Below are positions 15,266 to 32,972 of a DNA stretch of 64,000 nucleotides, piece by piece. Origin of the DNA: Parapedobacter defluvii (GTDB taxonomy: Bacteria; Bacteroidota; Bacteroidia; Sphingobacteriales; Sphingobacteriaceae); NCBI RefSeq assembly GCF_014642075.1, contig NZ_BMIK01000019.1, positions 1 to 64,000 of the forward strand, written 5' to 3'. A program made the position numbers and the translations under genes. The notes beneath the pieces are model-generated. The model was not told where the DNA came from. It searched no databases and saw nothing but the letters and a program-made list of their open reading frames with translations. Every line of letters starts with the position of its first letter. The stretch's first letter is position 1.

Positions 15266-15430
15266 TGAAAACGTGTTAAAGAAACCAAAAAACGTTAACA
15301 TGTTTCTTTCATATGTTAAAGAATCCCTTCTTTTTAACCACATTGTAGGGGGGGGCAATTTCATTAGGCTAAGTTGTTATTGTTGTAATGGGTTCTACCG
15401 ATTGGGCAGGCGGGACCCCTTCCGAAAACA
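15017..15430. repeat. Duplicated ~412-bp block, copy 2
   Basis: Second copy of 2865-3276. Here the block continues leftward into the beginning of the HNH gene, so this is the more complete copy. Its right end at CCGAAAACA meets the 3' end of the Fic gene. Confidence 0.9.
15254..15319. other. Two consecutive stem-loops (copy 2)
   Basis: TTTAACACGT (15254-15263) pairs with ACGTGTTAAA (15271-15280). TTAACAT (15295-15301) pairs with ATGTTAA (15313-15319). Preserved in both copies of the block. Confidence 0.5.
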
Positions 15431-16484
15431 AATTATACAACGGGTCATTTATATAAAAATTACTTTTGCCAATTTTGATTTTTACAAGCAAGCCTGCTTC
15501 TGCCAATTTGTTTAGATAAGTGGCTGCTGTTTGTCGCGTCACTTTAATGTCTTGTTCCAAGAACTCAATTTTGGTATAAGGATGCTTGAATAAGTTGTTC
15601 AACAAATCCTGGCTATAGATTTTCGGAAACTCAGACCGTATTCGGTTTTTATACGCCTGCATCAATCTTTTGATGCCGTCTATCAAGTGAAGCGTTTGCT
15701 TCGATGTCTCTTCTACCCCTTTTAGTATAAATATAATCCAAGGTTCCCAATCGCCATCCTCCCGTACCTGTTGAAGCAAGCGATAATAATCCCCTTTATA
15801 CTGGATGATATAACGGCTGAGATAGAGTATAGGCAAAGTCAACAAATCCTCTTTCACAAGATAAAGAATATTGATAATTCTTCCCGTTCTACCATTACCA
15901 TCGTAAAAAGGATGTATCGTCTCAAAACGATGGTGGATGATTGCCATTTTGATCAATGCATCAATGCCGCTCATTTCTTCATCGTTCATGAAATGTACCA
16001 AGTTATCCATGAGCTTTTGAATGGTGGGATGGTCTTGGGGAGGTGTATAAACCACTTCGCCCGTTCTTTCATTCTTCAATACGGTACCCGCATTACGTCG
16101 GTAACCCGCGTCATTGTTCTCCAATGTACGCTGGATGTTTTGGATATGGACTTGTGTTATAAGCTTATTTTTTCTTACCTCTTGAAAACCATGCTTTAAT
16201 GCTTGTGCATATCGATGTACTTCTTTCGCTGCGGCATCGTTGAAAAAGCTCTCAAATAATTCTGCTTTGTAAACCTCATCATGGGTGGTTATAATGTTTT
16301 CTATGGCTGAGCTTTCTTTAGCTTCCTGCAGGGCTAATGTATTTATTAGAATATTTTCGTTAGGAATGGTGGCACATCGCCCATTTAAAAGGGCGAGGTA
16401 ACGATGAGCCGCAGCTAATTGCTTTAAAACCATTTTGGTTTCAACATCAGTATTTGGAGGCAACAAGGGTATATTAAATCTCAT
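15369..16484 (-). CDS. Fic family protein (AMPylase-like)
   Basis: 371 aa. The Fic motif 'HPFYDGNGRTGR' is at residues 191-202 with all catalytic positions present. An inhibitory motif S58-x3-E62-N63 ('SSAIEN') lies N-terminal to it, making this a self-inhibited class II protein. A C-terminal winged-helix-like domain ('IKVTRQTAATYLNKLAEAGLL') follows. Fic enzymes transfer AMP or other nucleotides to target proteins; stand-alone Fic proteins of this build have been reported in phage defence. The last about 18 residues come from the duplicated block, so the natural C-terminus was replaced, but only by a few residues judging from the family. Expected still to fold. Confidence 0.85.
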   Translation of the reverse strand: MRFNIPLLPPNTDVETKMVLKQLAAAHRYLALLNGRCATIPNENILINTLALQEAKESSAIENIITTHDEVYKAELFESFFNDAAAKEVHRYAQALKHGFQEVRKNKLITQVHIQNIQRTLENNDAGYRRNAGTVLKNERTGEVVYTPPQDHPTIQKLMDNLVHFMNDEEMSGIDALIKMAIIHHRFETIHPFYDGNGRTGRIINILYLVKEDLLTLPILYLSRYIIQYKGDYYRLLQQVREDGDWEPWIIFILKGVEETSKQTLHLIDGIKRLMQAYKNRIRSEFPKIYSQDLLNNLFKHPYTKIEFLEQDIKVTRQTAATYLNKLAEAGLLVKIKIGKSNFYINDPLYNLFSEGVPPAQSVEPITTITT

Positions 16485-17020: not shown

Positions 17021-17054
17021 TTATTTGAGTCTAACACGGAAGTTATTTTTCGAT

Positions 17055-18215
17055 ATGCTAAATGATGTCCTCTATCTCGACTACGCTGCCACCACTCCAA
17101 CCGATTCGAGGGTAGTAGATGCCATGCTGCCTTATTTTACGACCAAATTCGGCAATCCAGCCAGCCGCACGCATGATTATGGCAATGAAGCCAAAGAGGC
17201 TGTTAAAAATGCACGCGAACAAATAGCTGATCTGATCGGGGCAAAGCAGCCTGAGGAAGTTATTTTTACTTCTGGAGCTACTGAAGCCATCAACCTTGCT
17301 ATCAAAGGTATCTACGAGAACTATCAAGACAAAGGCAACCACATCATCACCACAAAGACCGAACACAAAGCGGTGCTTGATACCTGCGCCTACCTCGAAA
17401 AACAAGGAGCCAAAATCACGTATCTACCGGTTGACCAAGATGGTCTTATCAACTTAAATGAGTTGGAGGCTTCCATCACGCCTGAAACGGTATTGATTTC
17501 GGTCATCTACGTCAATAATGAAACAGGCGTTGTCCAACCCATAAAAGATATTGCCGCAATCGCTGCCAAGCACGATGTATTTTTCATGACAGATGCCACC
17601 CAAGCGTTGGGTAAGGTTCCGATTGATGTCAATATTGATGGAATAGACCTTTTAACCTGTTCGGCCCACAAAATCTATGGCCCTAACGGTGTCGGCGCGC
17701 TATATGTCAAAAGTAAATTCCCTCGAATTAAAGTTGCTCCGCAAATCCATGGCGGCGGGCATGAAAACGGCTTCCGATCTGGCACCCTAAATACACCTGC
17801 TATCGTGGGCTTTGGACAGGCCGCGGCTATAGCTAAACAAGTCCTTACCGAAGAATCTTCCCGCTTAGCGGCATTACGAGAAAGCATTAAAGAGAAGCTA
17901 TCCTCATTCCCCAACTGTGTCTTTCATGCTGAAAAAGTACCCAAAGCACCCCATGTCATTAGCTTTTACTTTAAGGGATTGGATGCCGAAGCAATGATTA
18001 TCCAGTTACGGGAAAAGTTGGCGCTGTCAAACGGTTCCGCCTGTACGTCAAAGGAAGTCTTACCCTCCCATGTTATCATGGCTATGAATCATGACGAAGA
18101 CATTGCTTACTGTACCCTTCGATTGAGCATTGGCCGTTTTACACCTAATGATGCCGCAGAAAAGATTTATCAAGCTTTTGATGTAGCACTCAAGGAAATG
18201 GCTAATTTTGTTTAA
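17055..18215 (+). CDS. dndA: Cysteine desulfurase DndA
   Basis: 386 aa from ATG 17055; the TTG at 17025 adds ten residues outside the family. A PLP-dependent NifS/IscS-type enzyme that takes sulfur from L-cysteine and, in the phosphorothioation pathway, supplies it to DndC. Visible: 'LDYAATTP' at the N-terminus, 'TEHKAVL', the PLP lysine in 'SAHKIYGP' (Lys206) and the catalytic loop 'SNGSACTS' (Cys330). It is alone on the + strand and its 3' end overlaps dndE (opposite strand) by 14 bp. The assignment as DndA rather than a general IscS rests on this context. Confidence 0.88.
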   Translation: MLNDVLYLDYAATTPTDSRVVDAMLPYFTTKFGNPASRTHDYGNEAKEAVKNAREQIADLIGAKQPEEVIFTSGATEAINLAIKGIYENYQDKGNHIITTKTEHKAVLDTCAYLEKQGAKITYLPVDQDGLINLNELEASITPETVLISVIYVNNETGVVQPIKDIAAIAAKHDVFFMTDATQALGKVPIDVNIDGIDLLTCSAHKIYGPNGVGALYVKSKFPRIKVAPQIHGGGHENGFRSGTLNTPAIVGFGQAAAIAKQVLTEESSRLAALRESIKEKLSSFPNCVFHAEKVPKAPHVISFYFKGLDAEAMIIQLREKLALSNGSACTSKEVLPSHVIMAMNHDEDIAYCTLRLSIGRFTPNDAAEKIYQAFDVALKEMANFV

Positions 18216-18606
18216 CAGAAAAGGTCTCTGCCTCCGATAAACCCTGTTCAATACAACGCATTACAAAATCCATCCCGTCGTTATTCGCATAAGGCTCCAT
18301 TTCTTGCAGTCCATGGTCGATGTGCAACTTCACGTATTTAGGAATATCCTTATCGTTGCTTGCTATCCCATATAATTCGCATAACATTGCCATATAGATG
18401 TCGATATGGTTGCCAAATAGCACTTTGGCCGAATAGGTCTTTCCCTGCCCCTCTTTGACACTTTTCAAGTCCAATTGCTTACCCTTCGCAAGCGAGTAAG
18501 CGAAAGCTAATCTTGCAATCACGTTTTCTGCCCCCAACCCCAACTTATTGGTGAGGTGAGTGATGACTATCTTATTCTCCGGAGAAGTCGTAATCGTGTT
18601 AAACAT
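18202..18606 (-). CDS. dndE: DNA sulfur modification protein DndE
   Basis: 134 aa, small and basic/helical, matching DndE in size, order and motifs ('LTNKLGLGAENVIARLAFAYSL', shown in part; 'GKTYSAKVLFG'). In known systems DndE is a tetramer that binds nicked double-stranded DNA and is required for phosphorothioate insertion together with DndC and DndD. It overlaps the dndD stop by 8 bp and is the last gene of the - strand operon. Its 3' end overlaps that of dndA. Confidence 0.88.
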   Translation of the reverse strand: MFNTITTSPENKIVITHLTNKLGLGAENVIARLAFAYSLAKGKQLDLKSVKEGQGKTYSAKVLFGNHIDIYMAMLCELYGIASNDKDIPKYVKLHIDHGLQEMEPYANNDGMDFVMRCIEQGLSEAETFSVKQN

Positions 18607-20683
18607 GTTGCCGTTTTAGATCATAATCTTCCATATACGCATATAGTTGTCCATTATCAATGGGCACCAATTTGGATGAATCCAACTCCGGCCGATGCTC
18701 GATAAGATGACAGCTTTTCACATAGGGCTCGATGATTTTATATTCAATGGCAGATATTTCTTTATTCAACAGCGGTAAAATCACCACCTGCTTTGATACA
18801 TTGGGATAAAACTCCGTGAGGATATTTTCCGCATGTGCCCTATCCAGCTTTTGCATCGGGCTATCAATAAATACCGGAAATTCAATTTTTGATTCTTTTA
18901 CTAACGCTTGGAAGATGGCTGTGGCATACAATTGCTTTTCGCCCATGGACAAATCTTCCTTATTAATTTTATCACCGTTTTCACCAATCAAGTCAATCTC
19001 GATAATTTCCTCCTCGATACTGATAGAGACCAGCTTTACGAAGTGCTTTTTATGCATGAGGGAGTTGAGTCCTCTACGGATAGACTCCTCCAAAAGATGC
19101 CGCTTTTCCAGTTGGATTTTTTTAATAAATTCATCCAGCTCTCCGATCAGACGTGTGGCTACTTCATCTTTCTCCCGAAGATCCGCATTGATATCCAATT
19201 TCTTTTGAAACTCCGACAGCACCTTTTTTCGGTTATTCAATTCATTTTGTAACACGCCTTCTCCCATCAACACCTGTTCTTGGTCCTTCTTTATATTTTT
19301 CAGGGTATTAAATAGGGCTTCCGCTTTTACTTTATAATCTTTTATGGTTGCATCATTCCCCTTTGATTTCGCGTGGTTCAATAAGCGCGTTACCTCATTC
19401 AGCTCATAGCGGCATCGCTTTATTTCTTGGGTGAGACGTTTGAATTCATCTTTATACGATTGGCGCAATTGCTTCGCTATGGCCATCAATTCATTGTAGC
19501 TATCCTTACCCAAAAACAGCCGTTCGTCCAATTGCCAATCATTGGCTTGACGTTGCCAAAGATGCAGTTTTTTGAGTACTGGAGCGAAAGACGATTCGGC
19601 CGCCTTTCTATTAAGATTTTGAGGAAAACCGTCGAGGATAGTTTCTATTTGTTGAGTCAGTTTGCTGATTTCTTGAGCAGATACCACATTTGCATCACGC
19701 TGTTGTTGCTCAGCTTCGGCTTGTGCTACCGCCTTGAAGAAAAGACCACCCGCGATTGCAAAAGGAGCCAAATCCAACAATCCTTTCAAATGCGTTTTCA
19801 ATTGATCACTTGTAGCACTTAGTACTTTGCGCTTCTCATCAAGCTGCGCTATCTCTTCAATACTTAGCGTATTACCTGCGCGTAATAGGTTCGTTTGTAT
19901 AGCAAGGAGTCTCTTTTGTGTTTCTTCCAGCTTTTGATCTATTTGATGTTTAGCGGTTCGTTGGTAAGTCAACTCATGTTCCAGTTTCCCAATTTCGTCT
20001 TCCAACTGCTCAATACGTTCCAAATCAGTCTCAGAAGCCGACTCCTTCTGATATTTCGCTTGGAGTATTGTCAGGTTGTTTCGAAGATCAACGTATTTTT
20101 TTATTCCAAGCACCTCCGCGTAAGCACGCCCTAATTGCCGCTTTTGTTCGAGGCTTTGATTTTCAGCCAGCGCGGTGATCTTCTCCGCATCAAAAAAGAA
20201 AAACTTGGCGATCTCCTTAGGCAAGATGAAATCCTGAATAAAGATTTCATATCCCACATCCATCACCAGTTCGTTCTTATTGCCATCGATGAAAATTTCC
20301 AGATGATCCGTTTGGTTACCCAATTTATACGAACGCTTTACCAACACTTCGTTGGCCATGATGCCCGGAATCTCCATGTTAGCAAATACAACAGACACAC
20401 TGTATTCGGTTTCCATGTCTGTTGCCGCCGAGCGGTTCATGCAACTTTCCAAAAACTTGGGATATCCGCCCGCCTCTCGTATCCGTCGTCTGAACGTTTC
20501 ATCCACTTCTTGCATCTGGTTTCCATATAAACACCAAACGAGTGAAGTCAAAAACGTCGTCTTGCCATATCCATTATAGCCGCTGATGATGTGCACATTA
20601 CGTACACCATCCTGTTCAAAGGACACTTCGTTTACCCCCTTGTATACACGGAAATTATCGAGCGCTATCCGCTTGATTAGCAT
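18599..20683 (-). CDS. dndD: DNA sulfur modification ATPase DndD
   Basis: 694 aa, SMC/Rad50-like. Walker A G35-Y-N-G-Y-G-K-T42 near the N-terminus, long coiled coils from about residue 210 to 300 and 400 to 540, the ABC signature 'LSMGEKQL' and Walker B 'FPVFIDSP' near the C-terminus. DndD is thought to use ATP to open or nick DNA for sulfur incorporation; the family length is about 650-700 aa. It lies 2 bp after dndC and overlaps dndE, so the three are one translational unit. No Cys-x2-Cys hook is seen in the coiled coil. Confidence 0.92.
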   Translation of the reverse strand: MLIKRIALDNFRVYKGVNEVSFEQDGVRNVHIISGYNGYGKTTFLTSLVWCLYGNQMQEVDETFRRRIREAGGYPKFLESCMNRSAATDMETEYSVSVVFANMEIPGIMANEVLVKRSYKLGNQTDHLEIFIDGNKNELVMDVGYEIFIQDFILPKEIAKFFFFDAEKITALAENQSLEQKRQLGRAYAEVLGIKKYVDLRNNLTILQAKYQKESASETDLERIEQLEDEIGKLEHELTYQRTAKHQIDQKLEETQKRLLAIQTNLLRAGNTLSIEEIAQLDEKRKVLSATSDQLKTHLKGLLDLAPFAIAGGLFFKAVAQAEAEQQQRDANVVSAQEISKLTQQIETILDGFPQNLNRKAAESSFAPVLKKLHLWQRQANDWQLDERLFLGKDSYNELMAIAKQLRQSYKDEFKRLTQEIKRCRYELNEVTRLLNHAKSKGNDATIKDYKVKAEALFNTLKNIKKDQEQVLMGEGVLQNELNNRKKVLSEFQKKLDINADLREKDEVATRLIGELDEFIKKIQLEKRHLLEESIRRGLNSLMHKKHFVKLVSISIEEEIIEIDLIGENGDKINKEDLSMGEKQLYATAIFQALVKESKIEFPVFIDSPMQKLDRAHAENILTEFYPNVSKQVVILPLLNKEISAIEYKIIEPYVKSCHLIEHRPELDSSKLVPIDNGQLYAYMEDYDLKRQHV

Positions 20684-20685
20684 GG

Positions 20686-22029
20686 TCAGTAATTGTCAAG
20701 TTTCGTAAATGTAGGCCGCACATATTCTTGGAGAATGTTCTCCAAATCACTTTGCAAGCCCATTTTCTTTAACAAAAGGCCTTTGTTCTTTTGCGCATTG
20801 AGCAACCGTTGGATGAGTTGAACGTCTTCCGAATTTTCAGCACATACAGTATTGAGCAGTTCTTTTTCACGGTCTATTTCCAGAGCCGTTTGCCCAAACT
20901 CCACGCTTTCGCCAAACACCTCTTTGTACGCATCACTCACCGTATGTTCGTAAATATGGTCACGGTTCCATACGATCTGAATAGCCGAAAGTTCTTGCAG
21001 GGTAATCAATTGGTTATTGGGGTCCGCTTTTGAAGCAGCCTTTTGGGCTTCCAATACCATTTTCAATATCTTATATCGATACTTAGGCCAATAAGGGCCG
21101 ATCCCTTCCGCTTTATTTCGCCGTATGGGCATACGGTATTTTTCCGCACTGTAATTTTCATCCAGGCGATCGATGGTTTCATAAAGAAAATCACGCACAC
21201 GCACTAATGGTACCATCCAATCTTCGCCATTGTCGATCAAGGCCTCCATGGAGCGGTCGCGTTTTACCACGGTACAAACCCAGCAACCAAAACGGGAATT
21301 ACCACAGCTTGGCGTTTGAGTATCCATTACAATAGGACAATCGCCGCCACTTCCGTTTAAATAAAGCGTGCGAAGCTCATGATTCCGGTCGCCTGTCCAG
21401 GGGTTCTTATTGGATTCTAAATATGCCCATACTTCGCTCGTGGTCATGTCCTTAATTGGTGCATAAGCTTTGGCATTGGGCAGCGGGTGATTCCGTAGGC
21501 GCTCGCCTTTGACTTCATGCTTTTTTATAGATGCAGCCCGAGCGCTACTCTCATCAGACCGAGTACCGATCAGGATAATCACCTCCCCATAGTCCGCTAT
21601 TTTTTCTTTTATATAGTGTGTAGTAGGCGATATTTTAAGTCGTTCGGTACACCAGCGGAACATGTTGTTTGGAGCGGGATACCCGCGTCCAATCAGATTA
21701 ACCCAAAAACTGTCATCCAAACGAGGCACTGTATGATGAACATAAATTGGCAGCTCTTTATCGAGGGCTCTATTTCGGATAGCCTCTAATTGTTTGTTCA
21801 CAAATTTCAACACACGTGGATTCTCCACAAGTGTATTGTTGCAAATCACAAACACATCGCGCTTTTTTTGTTCAATCGGCGTAAGTCCAACTAATGCTTC
21901 CCACACCAACATCAATAATGTCGTGGAATCCTTACCGCCACTAAACGCCACAATCCAAGGCCTACGTCCGTCATCTTCAAGATATTGTTCTTGAATTTCC
22001 GATATTAGTGCTTGTTTATTGAATGCCAT
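20686..22029 (-). CDS. dndC: DNA phosphorothioation protein DndC
   Basis: 447 aa. PAPS-reductase-like ATP pyrophosphatase with the PP-loop S30-G-G-K-D-S35. Four cysteines (231, 242, 249 and 252, around 'CGNSRFGCWVC') fit the [4Fe-4S] ligands of DndC. It activates the DNA backbone with ATP and passes sulfur from DndA to it. Length and motifs are normal. The gap to the upstream HNH-STAND gene is about 80 bp, the largest within this part of the operon, so an additional promoter for dndCDE may lie there. Confidence 0.93.
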   Translation of the reverse strand: MAFNKQALISEIQEQYLEDDGRRPWIVAFSGGKDSTTLLMLVWEALVGLTPIEQKKRDVFVICNNTLVENPRVLKFVNKQLEAIRNRALDKELPIYVHHTVPRLDDSFWVNLIGRGYPAPNNMFRWCTERLKISPTTHYIKEKIADYGEVIILIGTRSDESSARAASIKKHEVKGERLRNHPLPNAKAYAPIKDMTTSEVWAYLESNKNPWTGDRNHELRTLYLNGSGGDCPIVMDTQTPSCGNSRFGCWVCTVVKRDRSMEALIDNGEDWMVPLVRVRDFLYETIDRLDENYSAEKYRMPIRRNKAEGIGPYWPKYRYKILKMVLEAQKAASKADPNNQLITLQELSAIQIVWNRDHIYEHTVSDAYKEVFGESVEFGQTALEIDREKELLNTVCAENSEDVQLIQRLLNAQKNKGLLLKKMGLQSDLENILQEYVRPTFTKLDNY

Positions 22030-22112: not shown

Positions 22113-25010
22113 TTATGGATCAAATTCATCATATTCATCTGCTTGCAACATACCCACAGCTAACATAAATTCTTTGGTTTCATTGTAAAGAGTAATAGGC
22201 ATTGCCCCATCCGTAATCCCATTATGTTCTAACCAATATGCTAACCATCTATATGGCTTAAAGTTTTCATGTTCATAAGATAAACCTTTTAAGAAACACA
22301 ATATGTTTAAATCTCTTATCTCCTCCTCACTAATCGTGTTTTCTTTTAAAACTTTTCCCACAATCTCAGCAATCATAATAAAAGTAAGGGGATAAGCAGC
22401 CCAGTTCGGAATAAATTTTTTGAAATTTGTAGCCCAGTCATGCAAAATGTGACCGTCATCATGGAAGCTGGCTAACTGTATAATGTAAAAGAGCTTATTT
22501 ATAATTTCGATGGGTAGATTTCCCCCAACATCTTTATCTTTTTTCTCGTTTTGCTTGAATAGGATTTTTATCTCCGCCTCAATATCTTGTAAGCCCTCAC
22601 TTAACAATTCTTTGGTCAAAAAGCTAAAATCAAGCTCTGGATGTGTAACTCTTAATCTTCCTAATTCAGACAGTGAATTTCCTATGTATTGTTGTTGTCC
22701 CAGTTCTACGAACCCTTCAAGAGCTTCCCTATAAAATTTAATGGCAGACTTATAATCTCCGATACCGCTATAACAGTTGCCTAAATGGTGGGAATTGCAA
22801 TACATGTTTGCGTAATCCTTCATTCCTTTCTGAATCTCGTATCCTTTCAAATAATACGGTAATGCTTTGTTCTCGTCATGTAAATTCCTTTCATAAGTGC
22901 GGCCTATTTCACTGAATAACACCGCCATATTTCCATTTGCTGAACTATGGCTCTTTAATTGCTTTCTTTCAAAAGTTAATTTCTCTTCAACTTTTATCTC
23001 ATTTTCGCATAACTTGATACCTTCTTTAAACTTCGAAATCGCGGCATTAGGATCTCCATCTCTTAATAATTCACCTTCTATTTGACGAACCACAGCGAAT
23101 TTTCTGTTAGCTTTTGATTCGCAGTTTAGCATCTGTTGCAGGACTTTTTTGGTTTCCTCAACATTATATAGTCTCCAGTTCAGGACTGCAACCTGAGCCA
23201 AATCTTCTATGGCAAAATCATATTCATCTAACTCAATATGGGCCCTTGCCCCTTGCTTATTTACATAGATGCCGTAGTGAAAATATCCACGTGTAAAGAA
23301 AAATTTATATAGACCAGTAGATAAACCAGTAATAATTCTTAGATAATCTTTAGAATTTGAATACTTCTTACAGTCTTTACAATACGCGGAATGTACGCAT
23401 TCTTGTATGGCCATTAGGTAATTCGGCAACTCTATCTCGTATCTCGCAATAACGTATTCCATTTCATCGGACAGTAAGAAATTACTGTATAACGCTATTG
23501 CCTCCATCATTAAATTAGTATAAGCTTCAATTTTTATCTGGTGAAATACACTTTTCGATTCTTCAATTGTCTTACCTCTTACAAAGAGCCTGATTGGGTT
23601 GAGTGTATGGGCTCTTTCAAATCCTATAAGATCTTCTTTGATATATATGAAGTTAAATTGCTTTAATGTTGAAAGTGCAAGATTTAAAGTGAATTCATTA
23701 GGAAAAAATTGTTGTTGGCCTTTAGTCAATATTTCTAAGAAAGGAATTTTACTTCCAGCTGGAAAATGCGTTAAATACCTCAGCAACCATTTTTGATTAG
23801 TTTCCAGATTTTCATATGCGGCTAAAAGACATATTTGTAATGAAGTCTGTCTGTTTTGCTGTTTATATTTAGGATTTTGGATGATTTTTGCGCCAGCATG
23901 TTCTATTGCGTTTGATACTTTTGCTGGGCTTACCATGAACTGTAGTAATCCAGATATTATTGTAATTGTTAAGGGATGTCCATCAGCGAACTTTATTAGC
24001 TTTCTTATAGAATTATCTCTTATATCTACAGATGGGACGTGCTTTTGGATTATCTCTATGCTTTCGTTCTGGCTTACATTTGTCAATGTAAGCACGCTTG
24101 CTGCCATTTCAACATCTAAAAAATTTATTTGGCTTGTTATAATTAATTTAGTTTCTTTCGTGTGCGTATAAAGACTTTTTAAGAAACTGACAGTATTATC
24201 TTGTTCTTTATGCCACAATATCTCGAAACCATCTAATACCAAGACAGTCTTTTCCCGATCTAATGTAGTGGCTAAATCGTCTAAATTTGAAACACCTAAT
24301 CTTTTACCAAGCTCATATTTTAAATCTGTTAATGTGCCATATTGATCCAAATCTATCCATACGACCTCTATTTGATTGTTTTTGATGAACTGCAATAAAA
24401 ATTGAGTTTTACCAATTCCGCCTATTCCTTCGATTAATGTAAAACGGTTCTGATTAAATAAAGAATGTAATTTCTCTAATTCGGAACTTCGACCGGTGAA
24501 GTTTTTTGTCGGATTAGGTAATGTAGAAAAGCTCTGATCTTTAAAGCTGATATCTGCTAAGATATCGGCTTTAATCCTTTTGATTTTTTCATTCTTTATT
24601 TTTAGGATTTCCTCTCTTGAAATTATGCCATCGTCATATTTAATATGACAGTCTGTGCAAAGTCGAATTAAGTTATGAGGATGATGAGATAAAGACTCTC
24701 GCCATGGGATAATATGTGCATTGTCTAATCGGTGACCACTACCGCAACGAACACATTTTCCTCCGCTTTCTACTTTGAGGTATTCTTTGATGAAAGAGGG
24801 GATTTCTGGCTTTTCGGTACTACTTAAAGACCAGGCTTCTTTTAAAAACAAATTCCAAGCATTCAGTTCCTCCCTTTTGAAAAAGTTGTTCTCTCTATTT
24901 ACATTTACGGGCAATGTTTTACCTTTTACGCCTGTTTTTACAAATGCGTATAAAAGTTCCTTAGTTATTCCAAGAAATAACGCTGCCTCGTTTTCGCTGA
25001 CGAACATCAC
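22113..25010 (-). CDS. HTH-HNH-STAND NTPase-TPR protein inside the Dnd operon
   Basis: 965 aa. Residues 1-55 resemble an excisionase/HTH_17-like domain. Residues 84-130 form an HNH nuclease: C86-x2-C89, H99 in 'DNAHI', N113, then C118-x2-C121-H122. Residues 170-450 are a STAND/NB-ARC-type NTPase with 'FTGRSSELEKL', Walker A G195-I-G-G-I-G-K-T202 and Walker B 'TVLVLDGFE' (256-264). Residues 600-800 carry TPR-like helical repeats ('KALPYYLKGYEIQKG', 'SAIKFYREALEGF'). The layout is that of bacterial NLR-like defence proteins (Avs and relatives) with a nuclease at the N-terminus, activated when the repeats recognise a target. It sits between dndC and dndB, in the same direction, 12 bp after dndB. 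I know of no Dnd system with such a component. The start gives the full HTH. Confidence 0.85.
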   Translation of the reverse strand: MMFVSENEAALFLGITKELLYAFVKTGVKGKTLPVNVNRENNFFKREELNAWNLFLKEAWSLSSTEKPEIPSFIKEYLKVESGGKCVRCGSGHRLDNAHIIPWRESLSHHPHNLIRLCTDCHIKYDDGIISREEILKIKNEKIKRIKADILADISFKDQSFSTLPNPTKNFTGRSSELEKLHSLFNQNRFTLIEGIGGIGKTQFLLQFIKNNQIEVVWIDLDQYGTLTDLKYELGKRLGVSNLDDLATTLDREKTVLVLDGFEILWHKEQDNTVSFLKSLYTHTKETKLIITSQINFLDVEMAASVLTLTNVSQNESIEIIQKHVPSVDIRDNSIRKLIKFADGHPLTITIISGLLQFMVSPAKVSNAIEHAGAKIIQNPKYKQQNRQTSLQICLLAAYENLETNQKWLLRYLTHFPAGSKIPFLEILTKGQQQFFPNEFTLNLALSTLKQFNFIYIKEDLIGFERAHTLNPIRLFVRGKTIEESKSVFHQIKIEAYTNLMMEAIALYSNFLLSDEMEYVIARYEIELPNYLMAIQECVHSAYCKDCKKYSNSKDYLRIITGLSTGLYKFFFTRGYFHYGIYVNKQGARAHIELDEYDFAIEDLAQVAVLNWRLYNVEETKKVLQQMLNCESKANRKFAVVRQIEGELLRDGDPNAAISKFKEGIKLCENEIKVEEKLTFERKQLKSHSSANGNMAVLFSEIGRTYERNLHDENKALPYYLKGYEIQKGMKDYANMYCNSHHLGNCYSGIGDYKSAIKFYREALEGFVELGQQQYIGNSLSELGRLRVTHPELDFSFLTKELLSEGLQDIEAEIKILFKQNEKKDKDVGGNLPIEIINKLFYIIQLASFHDDGHILHDWATNFKKFIPNWAAYPLTFIMIAEIVGKVLKENTISEEEIRDLNILCFLKGLSYEHENFKPYRWLAYWLEHNGITDGAMPITLYNETKEFMLAVGMLQADEYDEFDP

Positions 25011-25022
25011 CTAAAAATATTA

Positions 25023-26390
25023 TCACCTATTCAATTCAGTCACAAAATTTGCTAGGTATTCTTTTTTATAAGTATTCATAAAATCATCAAAACTATCTGG
25101 ATTATTAAGATATAAAAGACGTTGGACAATATCTTCTTTTATCTTATTTATACTTCCTGCGCTACCAGTTTTTGCATAAGGTCCATCATTTGTTGAAAAA
25201 TCGACTTCTTCCAGCCCGGATAAAAATTCTTCATAATTTTCTATTGTTAAATCTTGGATCTTACTCCAATCATTCTTCAGTTCCTTTTTGAATATGATTG
25301 GGAATAAAAGATTGAAGACTTTAATGAGAGCACCAATTCCCATTCCTTTAGACAATAAGCTATTGGCTGGGTCTGACCAATCGGGCTTTATCCTCCTAAC
25401 AGCATTAAAAAATCTAGCTATTGCTCTTACTATTAGAATATGATCCTCTTGATTATTATAATACTTAAGAAATATAGGTGGATAGGAAGAACCCTTTGCT
25501 GTAATAGATATGTAGCGAATTAAGGCATCAATCAAAAATGCCTGTGATATAGAAAGCAGTTGTTTTTCTTCTTTGCTTAAGGATTTGTTAGCCTTACCTA
25601 ACATTTTCACTCTACCAAAGAATGGGCTCTCCTCCAATTCGTTTAGAAGCTTAACGACATTATGCATAAAAGAAAGCTCATCCACTTCTGTAGAAAACTC
25701 TCCTGTAAGTTGGTACAACAATGACTTATTAACTGCTTTTTGCTCATAATTGATTGTGTAAAATTGTTTAGCAATTACGGACCTGTCAAACCCAATTATA
25801 AAGGCAATGATAAGTTCATACTTATCCCTAATCTCATCATCTGCCTTCTTTAATCCCTCTAATCTATGCTGTCCATCAATGATTAGAATTGAATTACTTA
25901 TATAAGGCACATACAAACTATACTTGCCTTCATCATTTTCGAGAAAAGAGATATAATTCGGTCTTTTTTTAAAAGATAAGAAATCATCAAATTTATTAGC
26001 TTCAGTAATATTCGAATCAGGCCAATCATTGATTAACTCGCAATTTGCAATAATAGTATTTGGGAAGAAAGCATGTTCTTCATTGTTGATGAACTTAGCA
26101 ATTTTATTAATTCTATCTTCGTTTGGGTCTCGCTGAAAGTCTTCTCTCTCTAAATTTTTTTTATCATGGTTAATTAGATGTTTAAAATATTCATCATCAT
26201 CAGGGAATGATTTGGCTAATTCTGTATGCTTAGTCAAATCATATCTTGCTGGTCTTACAGTATACAATTCAAGAAAATCCCTCGCCTGAATTTTGCCTAT
26301 AAAAAAAGACTCATTCTTTTGCAGCACTTCTTCTAAATCAATCTTTAGAAAGCGCTCTTCTTCATTTATTGTAAGGATTTCTGTTTTCAT
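25023..26390 (-). CDS. dndB: DGQHR-domain protein DndB
   Basis: 455 aa with the hallmark D172-G-Q-H-R176 in 'IDGQHRLEGL'. DndB in Dnd loci is a transcriptional repressor of the cluster that limits the number of modified sites and is usually dispensable for the modification. Length is somewhat above the typical 350-380 aa, so the C-terminal part may be specific to this branch. Its ATG overlaps the stop of the upstream membrane-protein gene (TAATG at 26388-26392), so the two are translationally coupled. It lies between that gene and the HNH-STAND gene. Confidence 0.85.
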   Translation of the reverse strand: MKTEILTINEEERFLKIDLEEVLQKNESFFIGKIQARDFLELYTVRPARYDLTKHTELAKSFPDDDEYFKHLINHDKKNLEREDFQRDPNEDRINKIAKFINNEEHAFFPNTIIANCELINDWPDSNITEANKFDDFLSFKKRPNYISFLENDEGKYSLYVPYISNSILIIDGQHRLEGLKKADDEIRDKYELIIAFIIGFDRSVIAKQFYTINYEQKAVNKSLLYQLTGEFSTEVDELSFMHNVVKLLNELEESPFFGRVKMLGKANKSLSKEEKQLLSISQAFLIDALIRYISITAKGSSYPPIFLKYYNNQEDHILIVRAIARFFNAVRRIKPDWSDPANSLLSKGMGIGALIKVFNLLFPIIFKKELKNDWSKIQDLTIENYEEFLSGLEEVDFSTNDGPYAKTGSAGSINKIKEDIVQRLLYLNNPDSFDDFMNTYKKEYLANFVTELNR

Positions 26391-27106
26391 TATAAACCTC
26401 CTTTTTCCGCAAGGTTCTTCAAATTGGCATATTCCTCTTCTCCTTTATAGTTGAGTAACTTCATCCATATAGCAATCAAATTATCATTATCAGTAAAATT
26501 TGATTGTATAGCAGTAATTATTCGTCCAATAAAAATGGAAAAAAAACATAAAATAAAGAAAGACAACACATACCACTTTACTACTGTTTCTTTTGCATCC
26601 AATAATGTCCCTGCTTGTACAAAATAAAAAATACCTCCTATGAAAGTTAGCATAATAGCCCAAAGTCTTAATTTAGTTCTCACAGATTCGATATCACCAG
26701 TAACATTCTTCAAAAACTCTGGTGGTATTTTATTTTCATTTAATTTTTCACTTAGTAAAGAGGAACTTGTCCTTATAACGTTTATTCCAAGCAAACTTAA
26801 GGCTCCAGTTATGCTTAGTTCATAAAATGACTTGGTAAAATTTACCTTATGAAAATGCGCACTAAGTAATGTTAATAGATAAGGGGAATAAATTATTACA
26901 ATAGGTATTATCAAATTGTTTGCGTACCACATAATGCTCTTCTTTTTATTCGATGATAACGCTACCGTAATCGTTACGAATTCGTTTCGAGTAAATAAGA
27001 GCATCCAGAAAAAAAATCTTTTCAAATTGAACAAACACTTTGTAACGAACAAACCTATTTCAGAATACGTTTGTTTAATCTTATCTGTAAAAGATTTCCA
27101 ACTCAT
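26390..27106 (-). CDS. Four-TM membrane protein coupled to dndB
   Basis: 238 aa. Hydrophobic segments at about residues 65-85 ('IIPIVIIYSPYLLTLLSA'), 95-115, 148-168 ('LWAIMLTFIGGIFYFV') and 180-200 ('VLSFFILCFFSIFIG'), with a charged N-terminal helix in front and a short cytoplasmic tail. No family recognised. Its stop overlaps the ATG of dndB and its start is 12 bp after the 150-aa gene, so it is a true operon member. Membrane proteins are not a standard part of Dnd loci. It could be an effector or an anchor for the HNH-STAND protein. Confidence 0.75.
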   Translation of the reverse strand: MSWKSFTDKIKQTYSEIGLFVTKCLFNLKRFFFWMLLFTRNEFVTITVALSSNKKKSIMWYANNLIIPIVIIYSPYLLTLLSAHFHKVNFTKSFYELSITGALSLLGINVIRTSSSLLSEKLNENKIPPEFLKNVTGDIESVRTKLRLWAIMLTFIGGIFYFVQAGTLLDAKETVVKWYVLSFFILCFFSIFIGRIITAIQSNFTDNDNLIAIWMKLLNYKGEEEYANLKNLAEKGGL

Positions 27107-27118
27107 ATTGATATGTGT

Positions 27119-27571
27119 CTACGTATTCAAAAACTGATAATACTCCACCAAAAAACCATCTAATGTACGAGGCGGCTCTAAGAATTGGTTTTGCAATTCC
27201 CTAAACCCGCCATAAGCATAACGGTTCATCTCTCTCATACCTTCTTCGCTCAGCCCGGTTGCAGAAATGGGATCGATAAGACGTGTTAGCTGCTTATTAA
27301 GGGCTGAGCGTTCTTCTAAGGAAATCCCCAAACTTTTAAGTTCCGCATTGAGAAACATGGCAATTATCAAATGACGGTTCGGTTTGTATTCATTTGGAAA
27401 TTGCTGCACGAACTCCGTGGTTTCAGCATTGGGCAAGCTCTGTTTTTTCCCTTTTGAAATGCCCAGTACAAGACAGAAGTAATAACTGTCAAACTCAAGT
27501 TCAAAACCACTGTTCTTATGCTGGATATGCTTGAACCATTGTTTTGCTTTATCAGGAATTCTGAATGCCAT
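27119..27571 (-). CDS. Dnd-associated 150-aa protein
   Basis: 150 aa, soluble, mostly helical ('RIPDKAKQWFKHI' at the start, 'LNKQLTRLIDPISATGLS' in the middle). By position, next to the SMC-like ATPase and PLD-helicase, and by size it fits the small 'DNA phosphorothioation-associated protein 4'-type family or an equivalent component of an alternative restriction module; the match is from memory and not certain. It lies 11 bp after the ATPase gene and 12 bp before the membrane-protein gene. Confidence 0.55.
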   Translation of the reverse strand: MAFRIPDKAKQWFKHIQHKNSGFELEFDSYYFCLVLGISKGKKQSLPNAETTEFVQQFPNEYKPNRHLIIAMFLNAELKSLGISLEERSALNKQLTRLIDPISATGLSEEGMREMNRYAYGGFRELQNQFLEPPRTLDGFLVEYYQFLNT

Positions 27572-27582
27572 GGCTATAAAAA

Positions 27583-29556
27583 TTATTCTTGTCTATCTGT
27601 GTGAAAGGCTGAAAAATAGGTTTGTCCGCTTACCCAAATTCCATCTTCACTTTCTCTATATCCACTGACGGACCTGGCAGAGGCTTCTAAAGCTTTATCC
27701 CCTTTTTTAAAGAGTGTAAGAAAATAAATGCTTTCGCTTGCCGCCTGGGACAATGGGGCTACAAACCCATCCCGCTCACTGGATATCGTGAATGCTATAA
27801 ATTGGTCTCCTAATTTGGGAATCAACCTTGCTATTTCCGGACGAATCTGTAAGTCAATAGAACCCGTAGGACTATCTACTACTGACGGCAAATTGTGCGT
27901 GGCACTGGATAACAAAGAAGAAAGAAAGGCATAGCCAACAGTAAGCGTTTCACCTACGCTACCGGCCTCTTTTTCTACTAACCGCAAGCATTTGTCAATA
28001 GAAGCTATTCGGATATCATTATTTGGCATCAAGACTTTTATTTTTTCGTTGGCATCCGCGCATACGTCTTCACTTAAAGCCCGCCTTGCATAAATCAAAG
28101 CATTATCCAAAATGCGACATAAGACATCCCTTTTGGCCTTTTGGGAAATCGTACCAGTGGCCTCGGCTAAATCAGCGTTTGCTTTTTTTAGTTTTTCGTT
28201 CAAATTGTCGACGTTCCAACTGGAATCGGACATGTCTGTTTTATCGTAGTACTTTTCAATTTTTGTTTCCAGCTTTATTTTTTGTTCCTTTAGTTGGTCG
28301 ATGCGCTCGTTGATTTGCTTTATTTGGGGGTCGTTTTGGCCTGCCAGATGCTTAATGGCATCCAATTTTTGCCTCGCCAAGATTTCGGCATGTTGTGCAC
28401 CGTCAATTTCCTGCATCAATTGCTCAAGCTTTGTTTCTGCAGCAGAAAGATTACTGTTAGCTATTCGATCTTTTATATCCGATTTCATGGCATTGAGCAC
28501 GGCTACTTCTTCAGAGCCAAGATATTTTTTTGCACCATCCCTGATTACCTTTTGGATCGCAGGATCTATTTCCCTACCACAAATACAATGAGGTTCATCC
28601 GCTATCTCTTCAAAAAACTCGCGAGCTGCAATACCCGGTAGTTTCACTTTATCAAGGCTGTCTTTTAAGAAAACGATATTTTGAGCAAGTGAAGCTGATA
28701 ATTCCGCGGGATTTTTCATCAAAAGTGCGATGTCTTTTGCCTTTTCGGAAACCAACTGAATTGTTGAACTAAGATTGGCTTCTGCATCGGCAAGAGCCTT
28801 TTTATCCGTGTCGCTTTTGTTTATTTCCTGCTGAAATTCGTTTTCGAGTCGTTGTATCTCTTTATTAATATCTTCCAGTTGTCCCTCTTCGCCGCTTTTG
28901 ATTGACTTGACCTCATCAATACGAGCTTTGAGTGCTTCAACTTTGTTTCTTCGCTGTGTAAATTCTCGTTGACTTCCTTTAGAACCGGCATTATTTGCCA
29001 ATGTATTCCAATACTCGTCGATACGGTCTTTCATTCGCTGTAAGAATAGAAGCTGATACATCTCTTCGATCGCTTTTTGTGCATTGGTATGCTCTGGGTT
29101 AAGCAGGTTGGCGGCCAGTTCTCCATCGAACATGAGTAGATTGACGAAATCAGGTTTTAAAACACTGGTTAGTCCCACAGGGGGATTGAACCCACTATCC
29201 ATACCGTGAGGCCCAGTAGTGATGTAATTAACTGCTCCTTCATTTGAAAAGTCAAAATCAAGCACTATGGTCAACCTTTTATGTTTGGCATACAGGAGTT
29301 TAAGTTCGAATTGACCGTGTAGCGTTTGTTTATTCTTACGGAACTGTTGAGGTTTGTCAAAATTGTCCTCCCATATCTTAGGACCAGCCAATGCAGCGCG
29401 AAGTAATTTTAATGTTGTGGTTTTTCCTGTACCATTGGGCATTTGAATCAGTGCGATTTTATGCACCCTATTGTCTCCTTTCTCAAAGGAAATATCATGG
29501 TCTGGACACCTTAACCCTTTAGCTGACCAACCCAATATTTTAAAGTCAACCGCCAT
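27583..29556 (-). CDS. SMC/Rad50-like ATPase of the Dnd restriction module
   Basis: 657 aa. Walker A N41-G-T-G-K-T46 near the N-terminus, coiled coil from about residue 185 to 280 and 370 to 470, a 'CICGREI' element between the coils that recalls a metal hook (Cys-x-Cys rather than Cys-x2-Cys), and a C-terminal Walker B/D-loop 'LPSVVDSPTGSID'. Expected to be a DNA-bound ATPase working with the PLD-helicase two genes upstream. Its ATG overlaps the stop of the 66-aa gene (TAATG). It is distinct from DndD, which is encoded in the same operon. The role in restricting unmodified DNA is inferred from context. Confidence 0.8.
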   Translation of the reverse strand: MAVDFKILGWSAKGLRCPDHDISFEKGDNRVHKIALIQMPNGTGKTTTLKLLRAALAGPKIWEDNFDKPQQFRKNKQTLHGQFELKLLYAKHKRLTIVLDFDFSNEGAVNYITTGPHGMDSGFNPPVGLTSVLKPDFVNLLMFDGELAANLLNPEHTNAQKAIEEMYQLLFLQRMKDRIDEYWNTLANNAGSKGSQREFTQRRNKVEALKARIDEVKSIKSGEEGQLEDINKEIQRLENEFQQEINKSDTDKKALADAEANLSSTIQLVSEKAKDIALLMKNPAELSASLAQNIVFLKDSLDKVKLPGIAAREFFEEIADEPHCICGREIDPAIQKVIRDGAKKYLGSEEVAVLNAMKSDIKDRIANSNLSAAETKLEQLMQEIDGAQHAEILARQKLDAIKHLAGQNDPQIKQINERIDQLKEQKIKLETKIEKYYDKTDMSDSSWNVDNLNEKLKKANADLAEATGTISQKAKRDVLCRILDNALIYARRALSEDVCADANEKIKVLMPNNDIRIASIDKCLRLVEKEAGSVGETLTVGYAFLSSLLSSATHNLPSVVDSPTGSIDLQIRPEIARLIPKLGDQFIAFTISSERDGFVAPLSQAASESIYFLTLFKKGDKALEASARSVSGYRESEDGIWVSGQTYFSAFHTDRQE

Positions 29557-29768: not shown

Positions 29769-31841
29769 TTAGTTGTCCGGCCTTATAGTCGAAAGATGTT
29801 GTAAAAATGCCTGACGCTCTTCGTCTGTATTCATATGGCCTTTGTTTTCTTTATCATCGCTCCGTATAAAATCCACTACGTTGGCAATCTTTTCTGGATT
29901 GTGAGGATCGGTGCGTAAACATCGGCCAATGCGTTGAATGGTCTCAAGTTTTGCTTTCGAAGAAGATAAGAGAATAACATTTTGGAGAGACTGGATATCT
30001 ATTCCTTCAGATAAGCGATGACATGTAAGTAAGCATTCTATCTCTCCCTTCGAAAACCTACTTAATACATTTGAGTCATCTTCGTTAAAGTAAGTATGAA
30101 AGACACTATGATGTTTGTGTATTATTTCCAGAATTTCTTCTCCATACTCTTTGGTTTCTACAAAAACAATACACCTTTCCAACATTGCCGGATGTTTAGC
30201 GATGAAACTCCGAAATGCGACTACTTTTCCTTCGGCTGTTTTATAAACTCTCGCTAGTTCGTTCCAAAAATCCTCATCGCTCACTGGATTACCGGCCTTT
30301 TCTCGGGCTGCTTTTCTTTTGTGTACATCCCGCAGCCGTGTTTTGTCTTTCCCTGTTAAACGATATTGAACTGGGAAATAATTGAATGGAGCAAGAATAC
30401 CTTTTCTAATCGCATCTTCTAACGTAAACTCAAAAATAACGGGACCAATATGATCAAATATGAACTGGGTTCCGTAATCATCGTATTCCCGCTCTGGTGT
30501 AGCACTCAGCCCAAGCCGGTATCGTATATGATGGGATAGATTAATAAGTCGTTCTCTATTCCCTTCACTTCCTAATTTATGGACTTCATCGTGAATCAGT
30601 AATGTGCGATTGGCCGCCTCAACGTTTAACTTTGCTATACCTAAATGGAGTTGTAACCGTGATGTCAGTAAAATCCTATGTCGAGGATTGATTCTAAACT
30701 TATCACTTTCTTTCCGACCGCCATATTGTCTAAGAATACCCCAAGATAAATTGGAGTCAGTTATCAGTTTTAATAATTCTCGATACCACTGATGCAACAA
30801 GTCTGTTCCATCACATGAGATAATAATACTATCAACGTGGCTTTGATTAATTAACTGCTTGCAAATGCGCAAAGACGTGCGTGTTTTTCCTGTGCCGGTC
30901 GCCATGTTAAGAACCCCACGTTCATGTTTCAAGAAAGCAGCAATAGCATCATCTTGATGTTGCCATTTGTTAGGTATTTCAATATTGTCTGTTTCAGCGT
31001 TTGCCGCCTGATCCCTTTTTAGTCGCTGAATGATCGTTTCCAACTTCTGCTTGAACACTTCGGGTGTTGTACTATGTTCCATTACCTCTTTAGCCAACTC
31101 ACATTCCATTTCTATTAATTCCTTTAAAGGTTTTTTGGGAAATTTCTGGTGAATTATTGTTTTTACTTGTTCTATTGGAATGACTCTCACGGCAGAAGAC
31201 TGCCCGTTCCAAGTTCTTTCAAAAAGTTGAACCATTTTATCAATTCGTTCACGAGTGTAGCTGCTTTCATTCCAAGAGTATTCACACCAAATGTTTTCCA
31301 CATTGTACTGCAAAGCGTACTGCGAAAAATTAAGAGAGCCACTGAAAGCAGCTTGATCACCTCTCTCATCAGTAAAGACACCGAACTTATGGTGCACAAT
31401 ACCTACTTTATTCTTGGCAGGCACTATGGCGATTATTTGTAGTCGGTTTGAAGAAATGAGCCAAGAAAGGCAATTAAAGAAATGTTGATTTCGCTTGGTT
31501 AGTGTGGTGGTAAGTTTGTTTAGATCGTCCAAAAGTTCCTGTTCATACTCCTCATCAGACTGTTCTTGCAAACCCCTCACTATTGCATTTTTATCTTTTT
31601 CTGCTAAACTATCGTTGATGATAAACCGCATAGAACCACCTCGTTGTAGAAATGAAGCAAACCCAAGAGCTAGAGAGCTAAATCCCGTTGATCGGAAATA
31701 GCCAAGCGCCAAATCAAATTGGGAGCCATTCGTAAGTCCATCAAACATGAATCCGCTAGGTTCGTCATCATCACCAGATGTGTATAATAGCTTGAAGTCT
31801 GCGTCCCTAAGCATGATAAATCTGTATTTTGTTTTGCTCAA
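29769..31841 (-). CDS. PLD-DEAD helicase, phosphorothioation-linked restriction enzyme-like
   Basis: 690 aa. N-terminal PLD-like nuclease domain (H151-x-K in 'HHKFGVF', then 'GSLNFS' at 168-173). Superfamily II helicase with Walker A 'MATGTGKT' (313-320), 'HDEVH', 'GLSATPER' and 'QRIGRCLRT'. This build corresponds to the 'DNA phosphorothioation system restriction enzyme' type found near dnd genes that lack dndFGH. With the 66-aa, SMC-like and 150-aa genes it makes a four-gene module comparable in gene number to PbeABCD; equivalence is not shown. The C-terminus is shorter than in the DUF3427 helicase at 11299. Intact; 81 bp separate it from the YhcG gene upstream. Confidence 0.82.
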   Translation of the reverse strand: MSKTKYRFIMLRDADFKLLYTSGDDDEPSGFMFDGLTNGSQFDLALGYFRSTGFSSLALGFASFLQRGGSMRFIINDSLAEKDKNAIVRGLQEQSDEEYEQELLDDLNKLTTTLTKRNQHFFNCLSWLISSNRLQIIAIVPAKNKVGIVHHKFGVFTDERGDQAAFSGSLNFSQYALQYNVENIWCEYSWNESSYTRERIDKMVQLFERTWNGQSSAVRVIPIEQVKTIIHQKFPKKPLKELIEMECELAKEVMEHSTTPEVFKQKLETIIQRLKRDQAANAETDNIEIPNKWQHQDDAIAAFLKHERGVLNMATGTGKTRTSLRICKQLINQSHVDSIIISCDGTDLLHQWYRELLKLITDSNLSWGILRQYGGRKESDKFRINPRHRILLTSRLQLHLGIAKLNVEAANRTLLIHDEVHKLGSEGNRERLINLSHHIRYRLGLSATPEREYDDYGTQFIFDHIGPVIFEFTLEDAIRKGILAPFNYFPVQYRLTGKDKTRLRDVHKRKAAREKAGNPVSDEDFWNELARVYKTAEGKVVAFRSFIAKHPAMLERCIVFVETKEYGEEILEIIHKHHSVFHTYFNEDDSNVLSRFSKGEIECLLTCHRLSEGIDIQSLQNVILLSSSKAKLETIQRIGRCLRTDPHNPEKIANVVDFIRSDDKENKGHMNTDEERQAFLQHLSTIRPDN

Positions 31842-31922: not shown

Positions 31923-32972
31923 CTATTTTAACTTTTTCATTGCCGATTCCAATTCCTCGATTGTTGGCATTTCGCTTTTCAGTTTCTTAGGAAGTTGATA
32001 ATCGGCTACGCCTAATGGTGACTCGATGCCCTTGAGCGAATATCTGATAATTGTTTCGTTAGGGGTCTTGCAGAGCAATACACCAATGGTCTGCTTGTCT
32101 TCTTTGCTTTTGATTTGTTCGTCTATGGCGTTGACATAGAAGTTGAGCTTTCCCGCATATTCAGGTTTGAAATCACCGATTTTCAACTCAAACACAACAA
32201 AACAGTGGAGGTGGAAATTATAGAACAGTAAGTCCAAATAAAAATCTTCGTTTCCTATTTGCAAGTGGTACTGATTGCCCACATATGCAAAACCTTTTCC
32301 TAATTCTAATAGGAATTTCCGGATGTGCTGTACCAAGGCTTTCTCCAACTCACGTTCTTGAATGTCTTCACCAATTCCCAAAAAGTCAAAAAGGTATGGG
32401 TTCTTTAGGGTATCCTTGGCGAGATCAGACTGTGGTTTGGGTAGCGTCCGCTCAAAGTTGGTGATAGCTTGCCCTTGGCGTTCATGGAGTCTATTTTCTA
32501 TTTGTAAAGCCAATACATCTTTACTCCATCCATTCTCCAAAGTTTTCCGTATATAATACATCCTTATATTCGCATCTTTTACCCTATCTAATATGACTGT
32601 ATGGTGCGACCAGGGAATTTGTGCAACCGGCAGTTGCATAAATTCATCACCCTGTTTTTCAGCACTTTTCAATTGTGCAACCGGTGGTTGCACAAATTCC
32701 GAATAGGCGTCGGCAAAAGCTCTCATGTATTTCAGGTTCCGCACAGAAAAACCTTTGATATCCGGAAATTCGCTTTTTAAGTCAGCAGATAATCGATCTA
32801 TTACCTTTGCACCCCAACCTGCTTCCATAATTTGTTTTGAAATGATACTGCCGATGTACCAATACAATTCCAGCATCTCGGTGTTTACCGCTAATGCTGC
32901 TCGCTGTTGTGCATGTCGGATTCTCTCCTTTAGCTCACCAAGCAATTGAATATAAGTATTGTCTATACTCAT
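31923..32972 (-). CDS. DUF1016 (YhcG-type) PDDEXK nuclease
   Basis: 349 aa from ATG 32972, which overlaps the stop of the GIY-YIG-like gene (ATGA). N-terminal DUF1016 domain ('LYWYIGSIISKQ', 'GFSVRNLKYMRAFADAY'). C-terminal PDDEXK nuclease with D247 in 'EDFYLDLLFYN' and E262-L-K in 'FVVFELKIGDF'. YhcG-type proteins are common near restriction systems, where they are thought to act as accessory nucleases. Residues 93-119 contain a peculiar duplicated 'PVAQ' stretch encoded by two palindromic DNA repeats. It probably belongs to the front of the Dnd operon. Confidence 0.88.
   Translation of the reverse strand: MSIDNTYIQLLGELKERIRHAQQRAALAVNTEMLELYWYIGSIISKQIMEAGWGAKVIDRLSADLKSEFPDIKGFSVRNLKYMRAFADAYSEFVQPPVAQLKSAEKQGDEFMQLPVAQIPWSHHTVILDRVKDANIRMYYIRKTLENGWSKDVLALQIENRLHERQGQAITNFERTLPKPQSDLAKDTLKNPYLFDFLGIGEDIQERELEKALVQHIRKFLLELGKGFAYVGNQYHLQIGNEDFYLDLLFYNFHLHCFVVFELKIGDFKPEYAGKLNFYVNAIDEQIKSKEDKQTIGVLLCKTPNETIIRYSLKGIESPLGVADYQLPKKLKSEMPTIEELESAMKKLK
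32615..32699. repeat. In-frame pair of palindromic repeats in the YhcG gene
   Basis: GTGCAACCGG...GTTGCATAAATTC (32621-32645) and GTGCAACCGG...GTTGCACAAATTC (32675-32699). The second is a near-perfect palindrome (TTGTGCAACC GGT GGTTGCACAA, 32673-32695). They encode the two 'PVAQ' segments. Confidence 0.6.

Follow-up and report, generated by a model that had tools for sequence, protein, structure and literature searches.

Loci for phosphorothioate (PT) modification of DNA carry many nucleases. Among the described proteins closest to the one reported here are DndI and SspE, in which a PT-responsive NTPase of the DUF262 type gates an HNH nuclease of the DUF1524 type (PMC11662687). Two further kinds of protein in PT neighbourhoods fuse a helix-turn-helix (HTH) to a nuclease: wHTH(SBD)+SAD+HNH proteins of the ScoMcrA type, and HARE-HTH+REase proteins, which belong to the nucleases sited immediately after the Dnd modification genes and have been proposed as restriction enzymes (PMC10853773). 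In the Avs (AVAST) family, Avs1-4 are STAND proteins with nuclease effectors that respond to phage proteins (PMC12931631). Here we describe a 965-aa protein, HNH-STAND, encoded in a 64,000-nucleotide stretch of Parapedobacter defluvii (contig NZ_BMIK01000019.1, positions 1 to 64,000; hereafter the window), whose sequence predicts an HTH-HNH effector part, a central STAND NTPase and a C-terminal TPR-type array. Given the precedents of DndI/SspE and of Avs1-4, we read it as an NTPase-gated HNH effector in PT defence; specifically, it is probably an NLR-type nuclease effector that Dnd and Ssp PT loci carry as an exchangeable cassette.

The open reading frame (ORF) at 22113-25010(-) is intact, uninterrupted by stop codons. 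The assignment of HNH, STAND and TPR parts to its product, made in a first-pass annotation, was borne out by Pfam, with HNH_2 (residues 86–131; 25.1 bits, cut-off 21), HNH (86–125; 21.5 bits, cut-off 21.4) and NB-ARC (189–392; 24.2 bits, cut-off 23.5) over their cut-offs and TPR_12 (695–766; 28.7 bits) below its cut-off of 30.1. The residues it had listed, C86, C89, H99, N113, C118, C121 and H122 together with the P-loop GIGGIGKT, lie where it placed them. With Walker A and B motifs, a GxP motif, a matching fold and C-terminal repeats, the protein is a STAND NTPase of the NB-ARC/NACHT class; by profile and by its catalytic His-Asn-His it is an HNH endonuclease, with an HNH fold that is poorly modelled. 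The structure of residues 1–170, whose prediction the first-pass annotation proposed, was modelled with AlphaFold at a predicted local distance difference test score (pLDDT) of 61; the HNH was not resolved, and matches to the HNH protein Cap5 (E 0.07) carry little weight. At the N-terminus, the HTH_17 profile matches weakly (E 0.01, below cut-off; three of nine N-terminal sequences match it at E 10 or better), but an AlphaFold2 model of residues 1–58 shows an HTH and a wing with a pLDDT of 65–87 per block of ten. Among its weak fold matches are RacA (E 0.1) and the excisionase RdfS (E 0.18), in line with the excisionase-like HTH proposed earlier.

Homologues were sought by protein sequence alone, and their neighbours were named by hidden Markov models and blastp. 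Searched with the N-terminal 165 residues, 395 phylum genomes yielded one full-length relative besides the window protein (G460). An alignment of these two, run against a genome-contig collection, gave one HNH-only locus and four full-length loci, in Flavobacterium (L044), a Bacteroides metagenome-assembled genome (MAG; L045), Duganella (L046) and a Chlorobiaceae MAG (L047, the same as G460). Two more full-length homologues, G824 and G1066, came from 400 order genomes searched with a profile of residues 1–620, which found no further one among 395 class genomes and none besides that of L044 among 299 genomes of Flavobacterium's family. The six homologues thus collected show 26–48% identity.

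The tie to dnd genes that the first-pass annotation saw in the window holds among these relatives: PT modification genes lie at most 12 kb from 7/7 full-length proteins, window included (five Dnd, two Ssp), so the family is not one mostly unlinked to such genes. HNH-STAND stands 18 bases after dndE in Flavobacterium, where DndFGH occupies the other strand, and 29 bases after dndE in G824. In Chlorobiaceae it follows Orf5/DndI-DndB-C-D-E-A and one 367-aa gene, and in Duganella SspH and two further genes flank it on one side and SspBCD on the other. In Bacteroides, PbeA and PbeC are 5–9 kb away, DndE about 9 kb and DndC (two ORFs) about 12 kb; in G1066 the gene is found 6.3 kb after SspD. By comparison, relatives sharing only the STAND part had PT genes in none of six places checked (of seven; L057 was left out), and none of the three that match in the HNH part alone (L021, which has HTH-HNH, L048 and L049) lay near PT genes. 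These control neighbourhoods spanned 10–20 kb, some ended by contig ends, and leave out STAND-only plasmid hits and 18 other places (short matches, mostly HNH only). With a recurrent link in separate lineages, 7/7 against 0/9 partial relatives, HNH-STAND is a component of PT (Dnd/Ssp) loci; a chance neighbour is rejected on the same linkage. One of the partial relatives, on a Methylobacterium plasmid (L021 9965-11524(+)), has the same HTH-HNH head followed by DnaJ-type zinc repeats, with no PT genes within 10 kb. In the Bacteroides MAG, genes for a 358-aa HNH_2 protein and a 443-aa TIR+SIR2 protein lie between HNH-STAND and PbeA (L045 14884-17364(-)).

Conservation is highest in the nuclease part. 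Mean pairwise identity over the seven full-length proteins is 54% in residues 61–131, which hold the HNH, followed by the HTH (45%), the TPR stretch 691–800 (34%), the STAND module (33%), residues 421–690 (28–30%) and the C-terminus (23%). The HNH site marked in the first-pass annotation is conserved, with H99, N113 and H122 invariant in 7/7, as are K201, T202 and D260; P346 is kept in six proteins and the zinc-knuckle cysteines are complete in five. For the closest-related pair of homologues, L044 and G824, the ratio of non-synonymous to synonymous substitution (dN/dS) is 0.10, at a high dS (1.4).

A maximum-likelihood tree built from the seven proteins has strong support on all four inner branches and groups each Ssp-linked protein with a Dnd-linked one: Duganella with Chlorobiaceae, and G1066 with Bacteroides. 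These pairings force the partner type to have changed between Dnd and Ssp at least twice, in one direction or the other. Exchange is also seen in the slot directly after dndE, which HNH-STAND occupies in the Flavobacterium and G824 loci, two of the seven. Over 3951 bases that take in dndC, dndD and the greater part of dndE, the DNA of G824 and G901 is 96.9% identical; the similarity stops within the 3′ end of dndE. HNH-STAND comes next in G824, whereas the following gene of G901 encodes a 272-aa HARE-HTH+Mrr nuclease (Mrr_cat 91 bits, HARE-HTH 28.6 bits). Inspection by eye shows the G901-type gene of G948 to be broken near its 5′ end by inserted DNA that holds a transposase-like gene. G987 has an Mrr protein, 48% identical, in the same place. 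An Mrr protein follows dndE in three of 13 other annotated DndC loci. The first-pass annotation had suggested a backup or a PT-sensing killer; a backup function is plausible because at least four loci contain a further restriction module, complete or in part (PbeA/PbeC, DndFGH, DndI, SspH plus two genes). The alternation with a restriction nuclease, HARE-HTH+Mrr, in the slot is as compatible with front-line restriction as with a backup. Elsewhere, the place after dndE is taken by genes for a RelA/SpoT-type protein (L083 4943-6409(-)) and a HATPase protein (L089 4734-6314(-)), which suggests a general effector slot. In L087, a 517-aa protein that fuses DndE to a HerA/FtsK-like ATPase directly follows dndC-dndD (12379-13932(+)).

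HNH-STAND resembles DndI and SspE in uniting an NTPase and an HNH nuclease in one PT-linked polypeptide. Unlike them, it has a STAND NTPase, unrelated to theirs, with TPR repeats and an N-terminal HNH of the HNH_2 type, with the excisionase-like HTH in front; the 965-aa protein gave no match to DUF262 or DUF1524 in Pfam up to E 0.1, nor to SspE or Orf5 in PADLOC up to E 0.01. A DndI relative (PADLOC Orf5, which we infer to be DndI) shares a locus with one homologue. With ScoMcrA-type proteins it has in common an HTH and an HNH in PT neighbourhoods, but it adds STAND and TPR parts and no SAD/SRA was recognised (for SRA, no Pfam match up to E 0.1). The HARE-HTH+REase proteins share with it the slot after dndE (G901 and G987 against L044 and G824) and the fusion of HTH to nuclease, but theirs is an Mrr PD-(D/E)XK nuclease without NTPase or repeats. 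From Avs proteins, which likewise place an N-terminal effector before a STAND NTPase and C-terminal repeats (PMC12931631), it differs in its HNH effector and its linkage to PT loci. No hit named Avs was found in the 2023 PADLOC library at E 0.01 or better, a comparison that did not extend to the Avs proteins themselves; the only hits there were to PDC-M01B (E 0.007–0.01). The 6mfv STAND-TPR protein and Apaf-1 resemble it in STAND fold and repeat array, but both lack an HNH and belong to other biology. The literature searched held no STAND-HNH-TPR protein and no NLR-type STAND effector in PT loci, the supplements of PMC10853773, where a listing is possible, being outside that scope; in the part of that source covered, STAND NTPases appear only in Orc/Cdc6 contexts.

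As an effector of this kind, HNH-STAND would be laid out as effector, switch and sensor, and would work like DndI or SspE, an Apaf-1/Avs-like NTPase replacing their DUF262. The resting protein would be kept closed and ADP-bound by its STAND module. Binding of an infection cue to the TPR array could then drive nucleotide exchange and oligomerisation, bringing the HNH domains together for DNA cutting, and the HTH may help to position the HNH on DNA. Self-damage would be limited by PT on host DNA or by the PT machinery. Several points weigh against this picture. The family counts seven known proteins only. It is rare, occurring in 3 of 400 order genomes, a set in which DndC is found in 35 (34 over cut-off); just two of those 35 DndC genomes carry it, the third carrier, G1066, having Ssp genes in place of DndC, and it is absent from all 13 other annotated DndC loci (13 of the 35). 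The nearest Dnd or Ssp modification genes are 6–12 kb away in two of the seven loci. Cysteines 89, 118 and 121 are lost together in two proteins (Bacteroides and G1066), so one subgroup is without a full zinc knuckle, and the HNH part of the structural models is of low confidence. A sensor role for the repeats is suggested by analogy, and the TPR stretch 691–800 is as conserved (34%) as the NTPase, not faster-changing. Finally, no known PT reader (SRA, DUF262, DGQHR) was recognised in the protein with Pfam, PADLOC or NCBIfam, and dependence on PT therefore rests on linkage.

It is possible, but rather doubtful, that HNH-STAND is instead a PT-reading restriction enzyme, whose HTH-HNH would scan DNA while PT or its absence set the STAND cycle, so that only unmodified DNA would be cut and no phage protein sensed. 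DndI and SspE do pair PT-responsive NTPases with HNH (PMC11662687), but no SRA, DUF262 or DGQHR domain was recognised here (SBD was not compared). The switching between Dnd and Ssp points to the mark, not to one partner protein, yet the Dnd mark lies in the context GAAC/GTTC and the Ssp mark in CCA (PMC11662687), and one reader would have to handle both. The slot is shared with HARE-HTH+Mrr, a kind proposed to discriminate modified DNA (PMC10853773), although a STAND-TPR layout is typical of sensors for other molecules. An improbable alternative is a guard of the PT machinery, inactive while the modification proteins are intact and destroying DNA once a phage inhibits or degrades them. Such suicide backups in PT loci have been proposed (PMC10853773) and would suit the coexistence with other restriction modules or parts (PbeA/PbeC, DndFGH, DndI, SspH), but Dnd and Ssp modification proteins differ, save the related PAPS-reductase subunits DndC and SspD (in part from PMC12839542), and a single guarded partner is therefore hard to name. 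That the protein is a STAND transcription regulator of the locus, its HNH fold merely binding DNA, is very improbable: STAND proteins that have DNA-binding parts are common, and many of the plasmid matches listed carry winged-HTH, BTAD or LuxR regulator annotations, but the HNH is the most conserved part with its H99, N113 and H122 invariant, and in G824 the gene takes a nuclease's place.

Two other origins were considered. A core protein of the host family is rejected, as full-length matches were absent from all 99 other relatives; among the matches listed, hits in 31 of the 99 fell within residues 618–807 (repeat region). Phage cargo is unlikely, since nothing longer than a 45-residue HNH match came from viral scans and the phage collection held no match to the first 640 residues of the Duganella homologue. 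In the plasmid collection, no record covered 80% of the query at a single place.

In the window, the genes run on one strand in the order PbeA, CxC-type PbeC, 150-aa protein, 238-aa protein, DndB-like DGQHR protein, HNH-STAND, dndC, dndD and dndE, with dndA convergent (Table 1). From the stop of the DGQHR gene to the GTG of HNH-STAND are 12 bases, and 83 bases separate the latter from dndC. The first-pass annotation had set HNH-STAND between dndC and dndB at this spacing; position and distance hold, but the neighbour is a DGQHR protein whose NCBIfam matches (to E 0.01) do not include TIGR03233, the DndB equivalog. This DGQHR protein (25023-26390(-)) is distinct from canonical DndB, and DGQHR-type genes occur in 10 of the 13 other annotated DndC loci. 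Likewise, the operon described earlier as Dnd does contain dndC, dndD and dndE, but because it also carries PbeA and a CxC-type PbeC, the locus is a Dnd + CxC-ATPase ("Pbe") hybrid. Promoter and terminator scans did no better than shuffles. Adjoining PbeA is a YhcG-type PDDEXK nuclease (31923-32984(-); PADLOC candidate PDC-S02, 488 bits). On the other side, a Fic-type protein (15369-16484(-); NF046030 390.8 bits, below cut-off 550) lies between dndA and a module of a large helicase (11299-14436(-); PADLOC mREase_IV 770.9 bits) with a nudix-like gene (14427-14819(-)). In G901 (L076 2084-5278) and G948 (L077) a 62% identical helicase stands two genes upstream of dndC, so the mREase_IV helicase may likewise travel with Dnd loci. 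SusD and TonB-plug genes are also found near the locus and, like the relationships of the matches, point to Bacteroidota.

Table 1. Features of the HNH-STAND protein and its locus (window coordinates)
Feature	Coordinates	Strand	Basis
HTH-HNH-STAND-TPR protein, 965 aa	22113..25010	-	GTG start; six full-length homologues
Winged HTH, excisionase/MerR-like, residues 1-60	24831..25010	-	weak HTH_17; AlphaFold2 secondary structure; weak RacA, RdfS matches
HNH nuclease (predicted), residues 86-131	24618..24755	-	Pfam, alignment, IscB HNH structure found by profile
STAND/NB-ARC NTPase, residues 165-400	23811..24518	-	Pfam NB-ARC; fold matches Apaf-1, NRC2, 6mfv
P-loop GIGGIGKT, residues 195-202	24405-24428	-	within STAND; also Walker B-like LVLDGFE, GHPL
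TPR-type helical repeat array (putative sensor), residues ~490-865	22416..23543	-	Pfam TPR at 695-766
DndB-like DGQHR protein, 455 aa	25023..26390	-	TIGR03187 133 bits (cut-off 58.85); Pfam DndB 40.8 bits (cut-off 29.1)
dndC	20686..22029	-	TIGR03183, 424.7 bits
dndD	18599..20683	-	TIGR03185, 272.9 bits
dndE	18202..18606	-	Pfam DndE, 77.4 bits
dndA/iscS-like cysteine desulfurase, convergent	17025..18215	+	TIGR03235, 438.3 bits, below cut-off 480
PbeA (PLD-type nuclease + SF2 helicase)	29769..31841	-	PADLOC PbeA, 695.9 bits
PbeC-like CxC ABC ATPase, CIC at residue 324	27583..29556	-	PADLOC PbeC, 74.2 bits
150-aa protein adjoining PbeC	27119..27571	-	position only; without family match (Pfam, NCBIfam)
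238-aa protein with hydrophobic stretches (by eye)	26390..27106	-	without above-cut-off family match

The putative HNH-STAND effector moves between both main PT chemistries, and the slot swap between near-identical dndCDE genes is a ready natural experiment, with two nucleases beside the same modification module. We regard as tentative, and on balance unlikely, the larger proposal that these proteins form a separate class of PT-sensing immune receptor, NLR-type STAND proteins whose HTH-HNH would be licensed by the sulfur state of DNA; they would then be a third NTPase design besides DndFGH and the DUF262 proteins, serving Dnd and Ssp marks alike. If it is true that PT, or its failure, gates a STAND receptor, restriction-modification logic would be linked with NLR-type immunity.
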